64,000 nt of DNA from Natrialbaceae archaeon AArc-T1-2 (GTDB lineage Archaea; Halobacteriota; Halobacteria; Halobacteriales; Natrialbaceae), in assembly GCF_030273315.1 (NCBI RefSeq), contig NZ_CP127174.1:496001-560000 (forward strand). Direction: 5' to 3'. A program made the translations under genes and the position numbers. Shown here piece after piece: positions 8,439-62,177 of this stretch. The notes under the pieces are model-generated. The model was not told the origin of the DNA. It did no database searches and saw only the letters and a program-made list of their open reading frames with translations. Position 1 is the first letter of the stretch; each line of letters opens with the position of its first letter.

Positions 8439-8686
8439 GTTCTTCCGCCCTCTGAGAACGAATTTTCTGCCGTTCCGATCCGACTCTGTGCGCGGACACG
8501 TGTTACTTGTTGGGTGGCGGGCCTGCCATCGTGACGTGGTTTGTGTCATCGGGTGTCGGCGTCCTCCCCGACCGCAAGGGTCGGAGCATCCGTCTTGTAC
8601 CGCCTGTGAATATAGCGCGCGAAGTCACCTCCGTCAAGCGTCGAACCGGACACCTGCAGTCGGTTCAACTCCCGCGTTCAGGCTTG
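8439..8686. other. gene-free stretch after glmS
   Basis: No convincing coding frame is present. Around 8570-8592 there is a hairpin (CTCCCCGACC, loop gcaa, GGGTCGGAG) that resembles the stem found near right ends of haloarchaeal IS200/IS605 elements. No tnpB remnant can be read beside it, so this is only a resemblance. Otherwise nothing is recognised. Confidence 0.35.
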
Positions 8687-8765
8687 ATACTGCCGGACGT
8701 GAGTCGTGAACGATTCTCGACGCCCCGGGTGGCGAGAATCTTCACACAGTTACGTCCGATAGTAT
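8687..8765 (+). repeat. extended palindrome family 1, copy A
   Basis: 79-bp near-palindrome. The outer arms are ATACTGCCGGACGTGAG and TTACGTCCGATAGTAT. The inner arms are GATTCTCGACGCC and GGTGGCGAGAATC. Very similar copies lie at 23297-23376 and, inverted, at 62039-62117. Here it sits in the convergent gap between glmS and the surface-protein gene. Confidence 0.9.
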
Positions 8766-8795
8766 GAGGAATCCTTAGTACCGTTCCAAGCGTCG

Positions 8796-8841: not shown

Positions 8842-8859
8842 TCAGGCTTTGAACGCCAC

Positions 8860-10008
8860 TTAGTCTTCCTCGAGCGTTAACGTGACCGTTTCGTCGTCGC
8901 CGTCGATCTCGACGTCTTCCGTCGTCGCGTCGTAGTCGTCGGCGTCTGCAGTCACCGTGTACTCGCCGTCGTCGAGATCGTCGAACTCGGCTTCGCCATC
9001 GTCGTCGACGTCCTGCTCGTCGTCCGGACCGAACCCGATACCGAACCCAGCGTCCTCGAGTTCGACGGTGGCGTCGTCGATCGGATCCCCGTCCTCGTCT
9101 TCGACCAGGACCGTCAGCGCGTGCGTGTCGTCATCATCTTCTTCGAGCGTCAGCGCAATCGTCTCGTCGTCGCCGTCGATCTCGACGTCTTCCGTCGCCG
9201 CGTCGTAGTCGTCGGCGTCTGCAGTCACCGTGTACTCGCCGTCGTCGAGGTCGTCGAACTCGGCTTCGCCATCGTCGACGACGACCTGTTCGCCGCTCGA
9301 GTCGCCCTCGAGTTCGACGGTGGCGTCGTCGATCGGATCCCCGTCCTCGTCTTCGACCAGGACCGTCAGCGCGTGCGTGTCATCATCGTCGTCCTCTTCG
9401 AGCGTTAGCGTGACCGTTTCGTCGTCGCCGTCGATCTCGGCGTCTTCCGTCGTCGCGTCGTAGTCGTCGGCGTCTGCAGTCACCGTGTACTCGCCGTCGT
9501 CGAGGTCGTCGAACCCGGCTTCGCCATCGTCGGCGACGACCTGTTCGCCGCTCGAGTCGCCCTCGAGTTCGACGGTGGCGTCGTCGATCGAATCCCCGTC
9601 CTCGTCTTCGACCAGGACCGTCAGCGCGTGCGTGTCGTCACCGTCGTCCTCGGTTTCGTCTCGCTCGTCGTCGTCACCGTCGTCCTCGGTTTCGTCTCGC
9701 TCGTCGTCGTCGGTTTCTTCAGGATCGTCCTGGTCGTCCCGCTCGTCGTCGGTCTCGTCTACGTCGTCGCCGTCTGCATCGTCATCGGTACCATCGTCCG
9801 TCGTGTCGTCGTCGCCAGCCGGCTCCGGATCCGAATCCGGTTCGCCCCACTCGTCGCTCACCTGTCCGAGCGAGTTGCTGACAGTCGCACCGCCCATAGC
9901 GAGTGCCAGTCCGGCTACGAGCAACACGATACCGCTGACGGTGAGAAATACCTGGACACTCGTTTGTATCGACCGAGTCGAACCCTGCTGTCGGACGTTT
10001 CGTCTCAT
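8860..10008 (-). CDS. acidic membrane-anchored surface protein with three tandem Cna-B/carboxypeptidase-regulatory-like repeats
   Basis: 382 residues from the ATG at 10008; an in-frame GTG at 10194 would add an unconvincing Arg-rich stretch. A hydrophobic N-terminal segment near residues 18-40 (VFLTVSGIVLLVAGLALAMG) acts as an anchor or signal. A very acidic linker follows that includes a twice-repeated DDERDETEDDGD. Three units of 84-88 residues come next, each beginning THALTVLVEDEDGD and containing DDGEYTVTADADDYD and DDETVTLTLEED. The chain stops exactly at the end of unit 3. This beta-sandwich type of repeat forms stalks on cell-surface proteins. A shared promoter-like module lies about 180 nt upstream. 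Confidence 0.82.
   Translation of the reverse strand: MRRNVRQQGSTRSIQTSVQVFLTVSGIVLLVAGLALAMGGATVSNSLGQVSDEWGEPDSDPEPAGDDDTTDDGTDDDADGDDVDETDDERDDQDDPEETDDDERDETEDDGDDDERDETEDDGDDTHALTVLVEDEDGDSIDDATVELEGDSSGEQVVADDGEAGFDDLDDGEYTVTADADDYDATTEDAEIDGDDETVTLTLEEDDDDDTHALTVLVEDEDGDPIDDATVELEGDSSGEQVVVDDGEAEFDDLDDGEYTVTADADDYDAATEDVEIDGDDETIALTLEEDDDDTHALTVLVEDEDGDPIDDATVELEDAGFGIGFGPDDEQDVDDDGEAEFDDLDDGEYTVTADADDYDATTEDVEIDGDDETVTLTLEED
8863..9633 (-). repeat. three tandem coding repeats (units of 264, 252 and 255 bp)
   Basis: In gene order, unit 1 is 9379-9633, unit 2 is 9127-9378 and unit 3 is 8863-9126. Units 1 and 2 are nearly identical at DNA level. Unit 3 differs by a short segment encoding DAGFGIGFGPDDEQD. 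The near-identity indicates recent duplication or gene conversion and makes copy-number change by recombination likely. Confidence 0.93.
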
Positions 10009-22731: not shown

Positions 22732-23286
22732 ATGACCAGAATCGTCGTGGTAGATAACCACGGACAGTTCACCCACCTCGAGCGCCGGGCGCTTCGTGAC
22801 CTCGGCGTCGACGTCGCGTTGGTCGACAACGATACTCCGCCGGAAGACGTCGACGCCGACGGAATCGTGCTCTCGGGCGGTCCCGACATCGAGCGACGCG
22901 GCCGATCGGCGGCGTACCTCGAGGACGACCGACCCGTCCTTGGCATCTGTCTCGGCATGCAGATCATCGCCGACGAACTCGGCGGCCGCGTCGACGAAGG
23001 CGAGTACGGCGGCTACGCCGACGTCTCCGTCGAGATTCTCGACGACGAGGATCCGCTCGTCGGCTCGCTCGCCCCGGAGACCCGCGTCTGGGCGAGCCAC
23101 GCCGACGAGGTCAAGACGGTTCCCGAGGGGTTCGACCGGACGGCCCGAAGCGACGTCTGTGGCGTCGAAGCCATGAGCAACACCGATCGTGACCTCTACG
23201 GCGTCCAGTGGCATCCTGAAGTCGCCCACACCGAAGAGGGCGAAGCAATCTTCGAGAACTTCCTCGAGATTTGTGAATCGGCATAG
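22732..23286 (+). CDS. guaAA: GMP synthase, glutamine amidotransferase subunit A
   Basis: 184 residues, a stand-alone class I glutaminase as in archaea with split GMP synthase. The nucleophile is Cys73 in GICLGMQ and the catalytic pair is His161/Glu163 in GVQWHPEVAH. SGGPDIERRGRS near 48-59 is typical of GuaAA. It supplies ammonia to the separate ATP pyrophosphatase subunit, which is not in this window. Family 1 palindrome copy B begins 10 nt after its stop. Confidence 0.95.
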   Translation: MTRIVVVDNHGQFTHLERRALRDLGVDVALVDNDTPPEDVDADGIVLSGGPDIERRGRSAAYLEDDRPVLGICLGMQIIADELGGRVDEGEYGGYADVSVEILDDEDPLVGSLAPETRVWASHADEVKTVPEGFDRTARSDVCGVEAMSNTDRDLYGVQWHPEVAHTEEGEAIFENFLEICESA

Positions 23287-23296
23287 GGGCAGTTTA

Positions 23297-23376
23297 ATAC
23301 TGCCGGACGTAAGTCGTGAAAGATTCTCGCCGCCTCGGGGTGGCGAGAATCTTCACACAGTTACGTCCGACAGTAT
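23297..23376 (+). repeat. extended palindrome family 1, copy B
   Basis: 80 bp. The outer arms are ATACTGCCGGACGTAAGT and AGTTACGTCCGACAGTAT. The inner arms are AGATTCTCGCCGCC and GGTGGCGAGAATCT. It lies between guaAA and the ferritin-like gene. Its right end runs into GTATAAGTAT, a good TATA element about 25-30 nt before the next ATG. Confidence 0.92.
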
Positions 23377-23403
23377 AAGTATCACCGGCCCTGAAAACCC
23401 TCT

Positions 23404-29291: not shown

Positions 29292-29404
29292 TATACACCC
29301 GGTCATGATTCGTTCAACAGTCGGCTGCCGGGAGTGGCCTCGATACGGGTTCAGTCGGTCGTTCAGTCCACGCGACCGTTGACTGGTCCATGACCGGGTG
29401 TATA
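29292..29404. repeat. extended palindrome family 2, copy E
   Basis: 113 bp. The terminal arms are TATACACCCGGTCATG and CATGACCGGGTGTATA, a perfect 16-bp match. The interior has further partial pairing (TTCAACAGTC with GACCGTTGA). It is related to copy D at 59475-59583, which shares CGGTCAT near the left end and GGTCCATGACCG near the right. It lies upstream of glycerate kinase. Confidence 0.9.
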
Positions 29405-38881: not shown

Positions 38882-38929
38882 CGGTGGTCGACGGACGGTA
38901 CCGGGACGTCGGTACAGCACTCCGTATCA
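38879..38929. repeat. degenerate family 3 palindrome between truD and MBL gene (copy G)
   Basis: The right end reads, on the minus strand, TGATACGGAGTGCTGTACCG, where TGA is the stop of the MBL gene. This matches copies F and H. The truD side (TGA CGGTGGTCGACGG) pairs only weakly with it. It is a short or eroded member, 51 bp between two stop codons. Confidence 0.55.
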
Positions 38930-39922: not shown

Positions 39923-39999
39923 TACGTCCCGGTAGCGGCTGCGGCTAGTATATGTCGTCCGGTTCGAGTCGACGGCGTGTCGGCTGTGGTGAAGGTCTC

Positions 40000-40082
40000 A
40001 TACTGACTGCTGTACATCCGTACCGGGGACACCGCAAGACGAGGCGCGGTTGCCCCGGTACATCGGTACAGCAATCCGTATC
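40000..40082. repeat. extended palindrome family 3, copy F
   Basis: 83 bp. The arms are ATACTGACTGCTGTACATCC and, from the other side, ATACGGATTGCTGTACCGAT, both continuing into TACCGGGG. On the minus strand the right end begins exactly at the TGA stop of the IPP isomerase gene. The loop is about 22 nt. Confidence 0.88.
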
Positions 40083-41145
40083 ACCGGTCGCTGCGCTCCT
40101 CGAGGTACTCCCTCGTCCGTCCGAGCACGACGTAGTCAGTCTCCTGTAACTCGCTGATGGAGGCCGAGCCGGTGACGAACATCGCCGTGATGAGCTCGAG
40201 ACGGAGGTCCTCGATCAGCTCGACGACGGGCTCTTCGCCCCGGCCTGCGGGGCCGAGAAACGGCTTCGCGAGCCCGCCCGCCGTCGCGCCGAGTGCGATC
40301 GCTTTCGCGACGTCCATGCCCGATCGAACGCCGCCGCTTGCGATGACGGTGTCGTGGGCACTTGCAGCCTCGAGGGTGCTGACGGCGGTTGGAACGCCCC
40401 AGGCGCGAAAGAGCTTGCCGACTTTCTCCTGGCGAGTCGCACCGACGGCCGCGGCGCGGTAGGACTCGATGCCCGACCACGTGGTGCCGCCTTTCCCGGC
40501 GGTGTCGATCGCGTCGACGCCCGCCGCGGCGAGGCGTTCGGCGGTCTCACGGGAGATGCCGTTGCCCGTCTCCTTGACGATCACGGGGACCGACAGTTCC
40601 TCGGCGACGCCGGCGATCTCCTCGAGACAGCCCCGGGCGTCGACGTCGCCTTCGGGCTGGACCGCTTCCTGCAGGAAGTTGAGGTGGACCGCCATCGCGT
40701 CGGCCTCGATCATCTCGACTGCCTCCTCGACGTCTCCGACGTCGTACTCGAGCAGCTGGGCCGCGCCGACGTTACCGTAGAGGAAGGCGTCGGGGGCCGC
40801 GTCGCGCACGACGGTGTAGGACTCGAGTAGCTCCTCGTCGTCTAACTCGAGGCCGGCGCGCTGGCTGCCGACGCCCATCGCGATTCCGGTCCGCTCGGCG
40901 GCGGCGGCGAGGTTGCGATTTATCTTCGTCGTGTTCGGATGCCCGCCGGTCATGCTCTCGATGACGATCGGCGCAGCGAGCTCGTGGCCGAACAGCGAAA
41001 TCGACGTATCGATCTCGTCGCGGTGGATCTCCGGCAGCGCCTCGTGGACCAGTTCGACGTCCTCGAAGCCGGTCCCCGAGGTTTCGACGTCCTCTTCCTC
41101 GATGATTCGTATGTGGTCGTCCTTCCGGTCGGATGTTTCGGGCAT
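40081..41145 (-). CDS. fni: type 2 isopentenyl-diphosphate delta-isomerase
   Basis: 354 residues from ATG 41145; ATG 41160 adds five residues. The TIM-barrel FMN enzyme opens with [10 protein letters not shown] and has [43 protein letters not shown] and SGGVRSGMD. It interconverts isopentenyl and dimethylallyl diphosphate for archaeal lipid synthesis. GGAG lies 9 nt before the inner ATG, supporting that start. The gene stands alone; palindrome F abuts its stop. Confidence 0.96.
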
Positions 41146-49756: not shown

Positions 49757-50263
49757 ATGGAGTTCGACGTCGTTCAGGGCGACATCGCCGCACAGGAAGC
49801 AGACGCCCTCGTCAACGCCGCCGGGACGAGCCTCCGGATGGGTTCCGGCGTCGCCGGCGCACTCCGTCGCGGGGCCGGCGAGGGGATCAACGAGGAGGCG
49901 ATGAGCAAGGGGCCAGTCGACCTCGGCGACGTCACCGTCACCGACGCCTACGACCTCGCGGCCGAGTACGTCATCCACGCCGCTGCGATGGCTCACTACG
50001 GGGACGGGAAGGCGACCGAAGAGAGCATCCGCGATGCGACCCGGAACGCCCTCGAGAGAGCCGACGAGCTGGGCTGTGAGTCGCTCGTGATCCCCGCACT
50101 CGGCTGTGGCGTCGCCGGCTTCGACCTCGCGGAGGGTGCCCGGATCATCGCCGAGACGATCGCCGACTACGAGCCGGAGACGCTCGCGGACGTCCGGTTC
50201 ATCACCTACAGTGACGACGAGTACGCGACGATCCGAGACGTTGCCACGGCCGTCGAGAGCTGA
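49757..50263 (+). CDS. macro-domain protein (ADP-ribose/O-acetyl-ADP-ribose deacetylase type)
   Basis: 168 residues from ATG 49757. Macro motifs are QGDIAAQEADALVNAAG (ADP-ribose-binding Asp and Asn), GSGVAGALRRGAG and IPALGCGVAGFD. It resembles MacroD/YmdB-type hydrolases that remove ADP-ribose or O-acetyl-ADP-ribose. The stop TGA is the first codon of palindrome H. Confidence 0.92.
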   Translation: MEFDVVQGDIAAQEADALVNAAGTSLRMGSGVAGALRRGAGEGINEEAMSKGPVDLGDVTVTDAYDLAAEYVIHAAAMAHYGDGKATEESIRDATRNALERADELGCESLVIPALGCGVAGFDLAEGARIIAETIADYEPETLADVRFITYSDDEYATIRDVATAVES

Positions 50264-50342
50264 TACGGCCTGCTGTACCGGTTTCTCGGCGAAACCAAGA
50301 TGGACCGTGGTCTCGCCGGCACTGACGGACAGCGGTCCGTAC
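50263..50342. repeat. extended palindrome family 3, copy H
   Basis: 80 bp. The arms are ATACGGCCTGCTGTACCGGT and, read from the other side, GTACGGACCGCTGTCCGTC. The inner arms TTTCTCGGCGAAAC and GTCTCGCCGGC pair partly. It begins at the TGA stop (50261-50263) of the macro-domain gene and ends 44 nt before the next start. Confidence 0.82.
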
Positions 50343-50386
50343 GACGCGACGAACCCGATAAGTCGTCGGCGAACACAGGAAGGCGT

Positions 50387-58512: not shown

Positions 58513-59475
58513 ATGGTCACCGTCAGCGCGAGCGCACGACTTCACTTCGGCTTCCAGAACCTCTCGCTGGCCCGCGAGCGACTGTACGGCGGCATCGGCG
58601 TCGCCCTCGAGGAGCCGCGGGTGACGGTCGCGGCCGACCCTGCCGAGGACGTCGTCGCCAACGATCCGCTGCTTACCGAGTACGCCGAGCGGGCGGTCGA
58701 CCTGCTCGAGGTGCCGGGCGTCGAACTTGCTCTCGAGCAGGCGCTCCCGCGTCACGTCGGCCTCGGCAGCGGCACCCAGCTCGCGCTGACGGCGCTTGCG
58801 GCGACGGCGCGTACGTACGATCTCGATGCGCGCGTACGAGACCGTGCGCCAGCGCTCGGCCGTGGGGGACGAAGCGGCGTCGGCGTCGCGACCTTCGAGG
58901 CGGGCGGGTTCGTCGTCGACGCCGGCCACCCGACGGGACGGTTCACGACCGACCGTCCTGCAGACGGCGACTGGACGGTGCCGCCGGTCGTCGCCCGCCA
59001 CGCGCTGCCGACGGAGTGGCGCTTTCTCGTCGTCGTGCCGGCGGCCGAGCCGGGACGCAACGGCGACGACGAGGACGCGAGCATCCGGACGGTGATCGAA
59101 CGCGCCGACCCCGCCGTCGCCGACGAGATCGCGGGCGTGCTCACCCGAAAGCTGTTGCCCGCCGCCGCCGAGGGACGACTCGAGGCTTTCGGCGACGCCG
59201 TCGGGGAGGTTGGCCGGAAAAACGGCGTCTGGTACGCCGACACCCAGGGCGGGGTGTTCCGCCCGCCGGCGGGCGATCTCGTCGCGAAGCTCGAGGAACG
59301 TCCCGTCCTCTCGGGCGTCGGCCAGTCCTCGTGGGGGCCGACGGTCTACGCCGTCACCGACCGGGCTCACGCCGATGAGGCCCGGACAGCCGCTCTGGAC
59401 GCGCTCGCGGCGTGTGACCTCGAGGGCGACGTCGTTCTCGCACGGCCGGCAAACGACGGCGCACAGGTGTGGTGA
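58513..59475 (+). CDS. beta-ribofuranosylaminobenzene 5'-phosphate synthase-like (GHMP) protein
   Basis: 320 residues from ATG 58513. SASARLHFGFQNLS near 4-17, the GHMP ATP loop PRHVGLGSGTQLAL near 80-93 and GGRSGVGVATFEAGGF near 119-134 match the beta-RFAP synthase family. In methanogens this enzyme starts the tetrahydromethanopterin side chain. GGVFRPP and VGQSSWGPTVYAV close the fold. Haloarchaea are thought to use folate-type cofactors, so the substrate here is uncertain. Its TGA stop starts palindrome D. Confidence 0.9.
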   Translation: MVTVSASARLHFGFQNLSLARERLYGGIGVALEEPRVTVAADPAEDVVANDPLLTEYAERAVDLLEVPGVELALEQALPRHVGLGSGTQLALTALAATARTYDLDARVRDRAPALGRGGRSGVGVATFEAGGFVVDAGHPTGRFTTDRPADGDWTVPPVVARHALPTEWRFLVVVPAAEPGRNGDDEDASIRTVIERADPAVADEIAGVLTRKLLPAAAEGRLEAFGDAVGEVGRKNGVWYADTQGGVFRPPAGDLVAKLEERPVLSGVGQSSWGPTVYAVTDRAHADEARTAALDALAACDLEGDVVLARPANDGAQVW

Positions 59476-59583
59476 TACTGTCGGTCATACCGACGTGAAC
59501 ACGGCTGGTGACAGCACGGCCAGACACACGTTCAACGGCCGGATCACCCGGACACCAGTTCACAGGTCCATGACCGACAGTAT
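59475..59583. repeat. extended palindrome family 2, copy D
   Basis: 109 bp. The terminal arms ATACTGTCGGTCAT and ATGACCGACAGTAT match perfectly over 14 bp. GTGAACACGGCTGGTG and CACCAGTTCAC pair inside. It begins on the stop codon of the beta-RFAP-synthase-like gene and ends 54 nt before the TFS start. Its termini (ATACTG) resemble family 1. Confidence 0.9.
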
Positions 59584-59636
59584 GACGACCGCAATCGAGC
59601 CGGACGTTTTTGGGGACCGACCACTTACGGGCGGGC

Positions 59637-61939: not shown

Positions 61940-62038
61940 CCCCTCTCTCTAACGGAACGGCCGACGATAGCTTTCCGAGCACGACTTCGCGAACTGAAGC
62001 CGTGAGTACGTATTATATACCGGTTCGATCTTCGTGTT

Positions 62039-62117
62039 ATACTATCGGACGTAACTGTGTGACGGTTCTCGCCACCCCGGGCGGCGAGAATCGTTCACGA
62101 CGTACGTCCGGCAGTAT
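62039..62117 (-). repeat. extended palindrome family 1, copy C (inverted)
   Basis: 79 bp. Read on the minus strand it begins ATACTGCCGGACGTACGTCG and ends TTACGTCCGATAGTAT, with inner arms GATTCTCGCCGCC and GGTGGCGAGAACC. It lies between two divergent genes, so it is not a simple terminator for either. Confidence 0.92.
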
Positions 62118-62177
62118 TACCCCCACTGGATTCCCCTACCGCAGGTGTTTTTGGGGTTACACACGTACGGCCGTGCC

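Follow-up and report, generated by a model that had tools for sequence, protein, structure and literature searches.

Results

Palindromes at stop codons are MITEs flanked by a TNA duplication

What places a palindrome exactly on the stop codon of a gene, and does so repeatedly within a single stretch of DNA? The window (the whole stretch of 64,000 nucleotides analyzed here, with a G+C content of 64%, from a host genome of 3.36 Mb) contains a macro-domain gene whose TGA stop runs directly into a palindrome, and a preliminary description had listed the same arrangement at three other genes. All four cases (copies D, F, G, and H; Table 1) were confirmed to lie at in-frame TGA stops, and the pattern holds genome-wide; for copy G, the TGA stop stands but the full palindrome does not, the end being truncated to about 26 nt. 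The motif TGATACKG occurs 6 times in the window against 1.55 expected, a count reached in 0 of 100 shuffles, and it forms an in-frame stop at 4 of the 6 sites (59473, 40083, 38929, and 50261). The site at 54812 matches the motif but was rejected as an element.

The palindromes proved to be elements with terminal inverted repeats (TIRs), TACTG/TACGG...CAGTA/CCGTA, with lengths of approximately 78, 80, and 107 bp (77 to 107 bp overall). Both flanks of an element carry the same 3-bp direct repeat, which is nearly always TNA. Identical TNA flanks are the hallmark of a MITE that duplicates a TNA target site, and the TGA is therefore duplicated target rather than element DNA: the first bases after it are TACTG or TACGG, and the far end is approximately their reverse complement. 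In copy H, the palindrome proper begins with TAC (50264) and ends with GTA (50341), followed by CGA, and 5 elements in the window have identical triplets on both flanks.

Using four window copies as BLAST queries against their own genome, we found family I (107 bp) at approximately 40 places, family II (78 bp) at approximately 30, and families III and F (78 to 80 bp) at approximately 50, partial matches being counted in each case. Family I copies are dispersed and up to 100% identical. The elements are short, non-coding, and multicopy (approximately 105 genomic copies), their TIRs match at 9 or more of 12 positions, and their duplication has a fixed length of 3 bp (TNA). We class the palindromes as MITEs, being non-coding, able to form hairpins, and bounded by terminal inverted repeats. 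A comparison with Rfam gave no match anywhere within the window.

Genome-wide numbers were taken from the BLAST matches and 425 kb of sequence around them, and the loci mapped consistently to genome coordinates. We searched for TAC...GTA pairs whose ends match, leaving the flanks unconstrained, and obtained 73 TIR pairs with TACT/TACG ends in which the two flanking triplets are identical; the triplet was TNA in 71 of the 73 and another triplet in 2. By triplet, the 71 duplications comprise 34 TGA, 26 TCA, 7 TTA, and 4 TAA. The earlier suggestion that the element inserts at, or is mobilized with, a TGA context was thus right as to insertion into a target and too narrow as to TGA alone, the target being TNA (60 TGA/TCA and 11 TAA/TTA of 71). 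In other Halobacteria, an exact TNA duplication flanks 71 of 88 elements from a scan of a genome collection (at least 120 stretches), whose pattern fixed part of the flanks but left the first two bases of the left triplet free.

Table 1. Element copies and associated features in the window (positions in the 64,000-nucleotide stretch)
Feature	Position	Strand	Description
Macro-domain gene	49757-50263	+	Pfam Macro
Copy H stop	50261..50263	+	TGA stop of the macro-domain gene, in-frame end of the ORF; gene-side copy of the target-site duplication
Copy H element	50264..50341	+	78 bp, family F, TIR TACGGCCTGCTGTACC / TACGGACCGCTGTCCG, 11/14 TIR match; relatives genome-wide
Copy H far flank	50342..50344	+	CGA, degenerate far copy of the TGA duplication
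Copy F	39998..40083	-	80-bp element 40001-40080, family III, TCA/TCA duplication; 40081-40083 is the TGA stop of an FMN-dependent, IPP-isomerase-like gene
Copy D	59473..59585	+	107-bp element 59476-59582, family I, TGA/TGA duplication; 59473-59475 is the stop of a GHMP/beta-RFAP-like gene
Copy G	38901..38929	-	Truncated family III end (by comparison with family III arms), gene-side end only; adjoins TGA stop 38927-38929 of a metallo-beta-lactamase gene
8685 copy	8685..8767	+	77-bp element 8688-8764, family II, TGA/TGA; between genes, off stop
23298 copy	23295..23378	+	78-bp element 23298-23375, family II, TAA/TAA; 11 nt past the stop of gene 22732-23286
62040 copy	62037..62119	+	77-bp element 62040-62116, family II, TTA/TTA duplication; intergenic

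Other repeats were also seen in the window. A near-perfect inverted repeat of about 109 bp at 29292-29404, TATACACCCGGTCATG...CATGACCGGGTGTATA, has CGGTCAT in common with family I ends and is flanked by CTA/TAT (or TA/TA); it may represent a related family with a different duplication. At 8855-9637, within the ORF 8860-9897 (-), there are three tandem direct repeats of about 255 to 273 nt that are 71% to 94% identical.

Elements lie on stop codons far more often than expected

TGA and TAA are TNA triplets, and TAG is not. Reading each duplication as TGA or TAA, we found that 41 of the 71 elements with an exact duplication in the window's genome lie on an in-frame TGA or TAA stop. Genes were mostly our own calls, made by a codon-usage caller trained on the data, and the null was counted with the same caller. 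TGA elements sit exactly on the stop of the upstream gene in 36 of 60 cases, against a background of 9.5% of other non-coding TGA (p = 5e-22), and TAA elements in 5 of 11, against 5.9% of other non-coding TAA (p = 2e-4). The preliminary description had named a genome-wide count without enrichment at stops as a possible refutation; the count instead showed strong enrichment. No element in this genome lies inside a called gene. When elements were defined by BLAST, with the duplication unconstrained, 52 of 105 were on stops, and in the 8 on-stop elements whose duplication is imperfect, it is the far copy that differs while the stop on the gene side is intact, which partly follows from how this class was constructed.

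To compare stops with other sites of the same kind, the elements were excised in silico. TNA stops were occupied in 41 of 311 cases (13.2%) and other TNA sites within 100 nt downstream of genes in 12 of 675 (1.8%), giving an odds ratio of 8.4 for stops (p = 2e-12); the absolute occupancies are inflated because the DNA was fetched around elements, and it is the comparison between classes that counts.

The same bias is present in other Halobacteria (159 loci), where 53 of 112 TGA elements are on stops, against a null of 6.9% (p = 1.7e-31), and one element lies mostly in called coding sequence. With deposited annotation in place of our own calls, the element was exactly on the stop in 4 of 14 usable neighborhoods (p = 0.014 versus 7%) and off the stop in the other ten. 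On such annotation, the end of NP_RS13830 on the Natronomonas pharaonis plasmid PL131 coincides with an element with TCA/TCA, the final TAA of Natrinema thermotolerans tpiA is itself the duplication, and elements lie exactly on the stops of a Gfo/Idh gene of the same plasmid and of a Natrononativus CPBP gene.

Mobility, distribution, and the search for a transposase

In a genome of the same genus (G001, C203), the orthologue of the occupied site 1430252 is empty and both flanks match: ...GACAACTGA runs into the downstream region with a single TGA and no element. This clear occupied/empty pair, the one that we have, attests to mobility, and the duplication and the empty site together demonstrate insertion into a pre-existing TNA. 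The other readable orthologous stops in this genome also lack an element. Strict copies were found in 23 of 125 genomes and 11 of 29 genera of the taxonomic family, with 1 to 30 copies each, and a reversed control pattern found none. Such a patchy distribution fits a mobile element. The haloarchaeon Natribaculum has related elements with up to 94% identity on its plasmids, and IMG/VR viral contigs contained no copy.

Several individual copies are worth recording. One element lies on a contig of a metagenome-assembled genome (MAG) labelled Chlorobiota (L255), which is probably haloarchaeal contamination of that bin. Haloterrigena sp. H1 carries the shortest copy seen (L339, at about base 500 of the reverse complement), which spans 44 bp with TGA/TGA flanks, TACTGTCGGACAGCAG...CTGTCCGGCAGTA, and is apparently an internal deletion. 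In the same strain (G085 C3, C5, C7), outward-pointing element ends lie 6.9 kb apart around an apparent repeated unit.

Presumably, the elements are moved by a transposase acting in trans, as is expected by analogy with known elements. Searches with PF01609 and PF13359 and scans for TIR pairs revealed no autonomous transposon that carries the MITE ends. None of 30 PF01609 (IS4/IS5-type) loci in four carrier genomes had TNA-flanked TIRs matching the MITE ends, and PF13359 (PIF-like DDE_Tnp_4) had no match in seven genomes. In 1.5 Mb of loci, six TIR pairs lie 400 to 4000 bp apart, and in at least three of these an end belongs to a separate MITE. At single-end sites in three genomes, existing partner ends are mostly 44 to 108 bp away, and the remainder look decayed. 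Two candidate sources were set aside on their ends: ISNpe15, found beside one copy, has ends that differ from those of the MITEs, and an IS5-like element of approximately 930 bp, of which this genome has at least six near-identical copies (L321, L324, L327, L329, L332, L335), has ends TGCTCTGTTGAAGAGC unrelated to them.

Why stop codons?

Taking the TNA motif, retention, and a weak context preference together, we consider the stop bias to be most likely the product of a target motif and selective retention of MITEs that copy TNA; an additional insertion preference for gene ends may contribute. Insertion duplicates the 3-bp TNA target, and an element landing on TGA or TAA, themselves TNA, leaves one copy of the codon in frame; the stop is retained because the target is duplicated. 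Elements on stops would then persist, insertions into coding DNA would be lost, and other intergenic insertions would be lost more often than those on stops. A weak, symmetric target preference, approximately gaSTNAStc, adds modestly to the bias: a context matrix trained on non-stop copies also fits the stop copies, and the target context favors stops only about 1.4-fold over other non-coding TNA. Avoidance of promoters amounts to approximately 2-fold, as occupancy is 1.8% within 100 nt downstream of genes versus approximately 0.8% elsewhere in non-coding DNA.

Of the elements in the most diverged families, III and F, 28 of 41 are on stops, versus 24 of 64 for families I and II (p = 0.003), with family age inferred from divergence alone and families possibly differing in target choice. 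That the bias is strongest in the most diverged families favors selective retention over pure targeting and points to longer survival on stops. Within family I, near-identical copies are on stops in 5 of 17 cases versus 8 of 19 for older copies, a difference that is not significant. A preference for the stop over TNA sites a few bases downstream is hard to account for by retention alone.

In an alternative reading, the bias arises at insertion and the transposition machinery itself aims at stops or gene ends, for example through translation or transcription termination or through DNA structure. The 7-fold higher occupancy of stops relative to equivalent TNA sites in the next 100 nt (13.2% versus 1.8%) speaks for such aiming, as it would not be expected if elements simply avoided genes and promoters, and near-identical family I copies already show an excess on stops (5/17, p = 0.018 versus 9.5%). 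That excess loses significance once the context preference is included (p = 0.07), however, many young copies lie elsewhere than on stops, and the diverged families show the higher bias, which makes aiming a possible but rather unlikely account. If it were true, active aiming at TGA/TAA would constitute a built-in safe harbor in a gene-dense genome, with the duplication regenerating the stop each time. Compatible with retention is the idea that the host gene benefits from a hairpin just past its stop, as a terminator or as a stabilizer of the mRNA 3' end, the latter having been raised in the preliminary description. Every copy folds into a strong hairpin, two-sided changes in the inner stem of family III exceed shuffled and slid controls, and the RNA hairpins of Yersinia ERIC, a bacterial MITE, regulate neighboring genes (PMC2267715), which counts in favor of a host use. 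Nevertheless, copies on and off stops are equally stable, both orientations of the element occur at stops, the orthologous genes of a congener lack the element, and the two-sided stem changes may come from the source elements; usefulness would also not require the exact stop position. On balance, we hold host use as the origin of the bias to be unlikely.

Much less room is left for two further readings. Being short, dispersed, and intergenic, the palindromes recall REP/REPIN-like sequences moved by a Y1 (IS200/IS605, RAYT) transposase, and GTAG REPs often give flanking ORFs a TAG stop (PMC3733652). REP/RAYT sequences are tetranucleotide-tagged hairpins without target duplication, whereas these elements duplicate 3 bp of which the middle base varies; neither conserved TIRs nor exact 3-bp duplications that differ in sequence between copies would be expected from Y1 transposition, and the stop here comes from the target DNA, with TAG not being a TNA triplet. 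A REP-like origin is very improbable. Finally, few genes, a common TGA trinucleotide, and biased ORF ends could produce the association by coincidence or as a gene-calling artefact, the more so as most genes come from our own codon-usage caller and the window itself has only four cases. Yet the excess recurs in two data sets against a same-caller null (p = 5e-22 and p = 1.7e-31) and with exact positions in 4 of 14 neighborhoods on deposited annotation (p = 0.014), so that we assign this explanation a negligible probability.

Implications and comparison with known systems

In compact genomes, mobile elements need harmless places for insertion. With a 3-bp TNA duplication, two of the three stop codons qualify, and in many Halobacteria, approximately half of the copies occupy them. 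Tens of genes per such genome end in a strong mobile-element hairpin, with possible effects on transcription termination and mRNA 3' ends. Whether target choice or selective survival is responsible can be tested directly by simple genetics in model haloarchaea.

In the open-access literature, we found no haloarchaeal MITE with a TNA duplication or a preference for stop codons, although an earlier description may exist elsewhere, and among the matches listed for a literature search with the end sequence, all papers were unrelated. Within this limited coverage, the elements appear to be an undescribed group of haloarchaeal MITEs. Insertion sequences with a TNA-type 3-bp duplication exist, for example, the IS1031 group of IS5. 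The 3-bp TNA duplication is what our elements have in common with this type, and no transposase with matching ends was found in the carrier genomes.

GTAG REPs (PMC3733652) are likewise short palindromes that often coincide with the stop of a flanking ORF; there, the element's own terminus supplies the TAG, whereas here the target duplication is the TGA or TAA stop. Also similar are the small mobile repeats (SMRs) SMR-A and SMR-B and the MITEs of Haloquadratum (PMC3119063), which are likewise haloarchaeal, approximately 80 to 110 bp long, with prominent TIRs, tens of copies, and no matching transposase. The SMRs reportedly leave no target duplication, and SMR-A reportedly inserts into near-terminal palindromes of IS605-type elements (PMC3119063); our elements have TNA duplications. 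MITEs are known from bacteria and some archaea (PMC10969869), and the prokaryotic representatives RUP, NEMIS, ERIC, YPAL, and Nezha (PMC10969869, PMC3733652) are likewise 70 to 300 bp long, non-coding, multicopy, intergenic, and hairpin-forming, with TIRs; the elements described here also show a target-site duplication and an empty site. Unlike those five, they occurred in Halobacteria only across our scans, have no known partner transposase, carry TACTGTCGG-type ends and a TNA duplication, and lie exactly on stop codons in approximately half of the cases.
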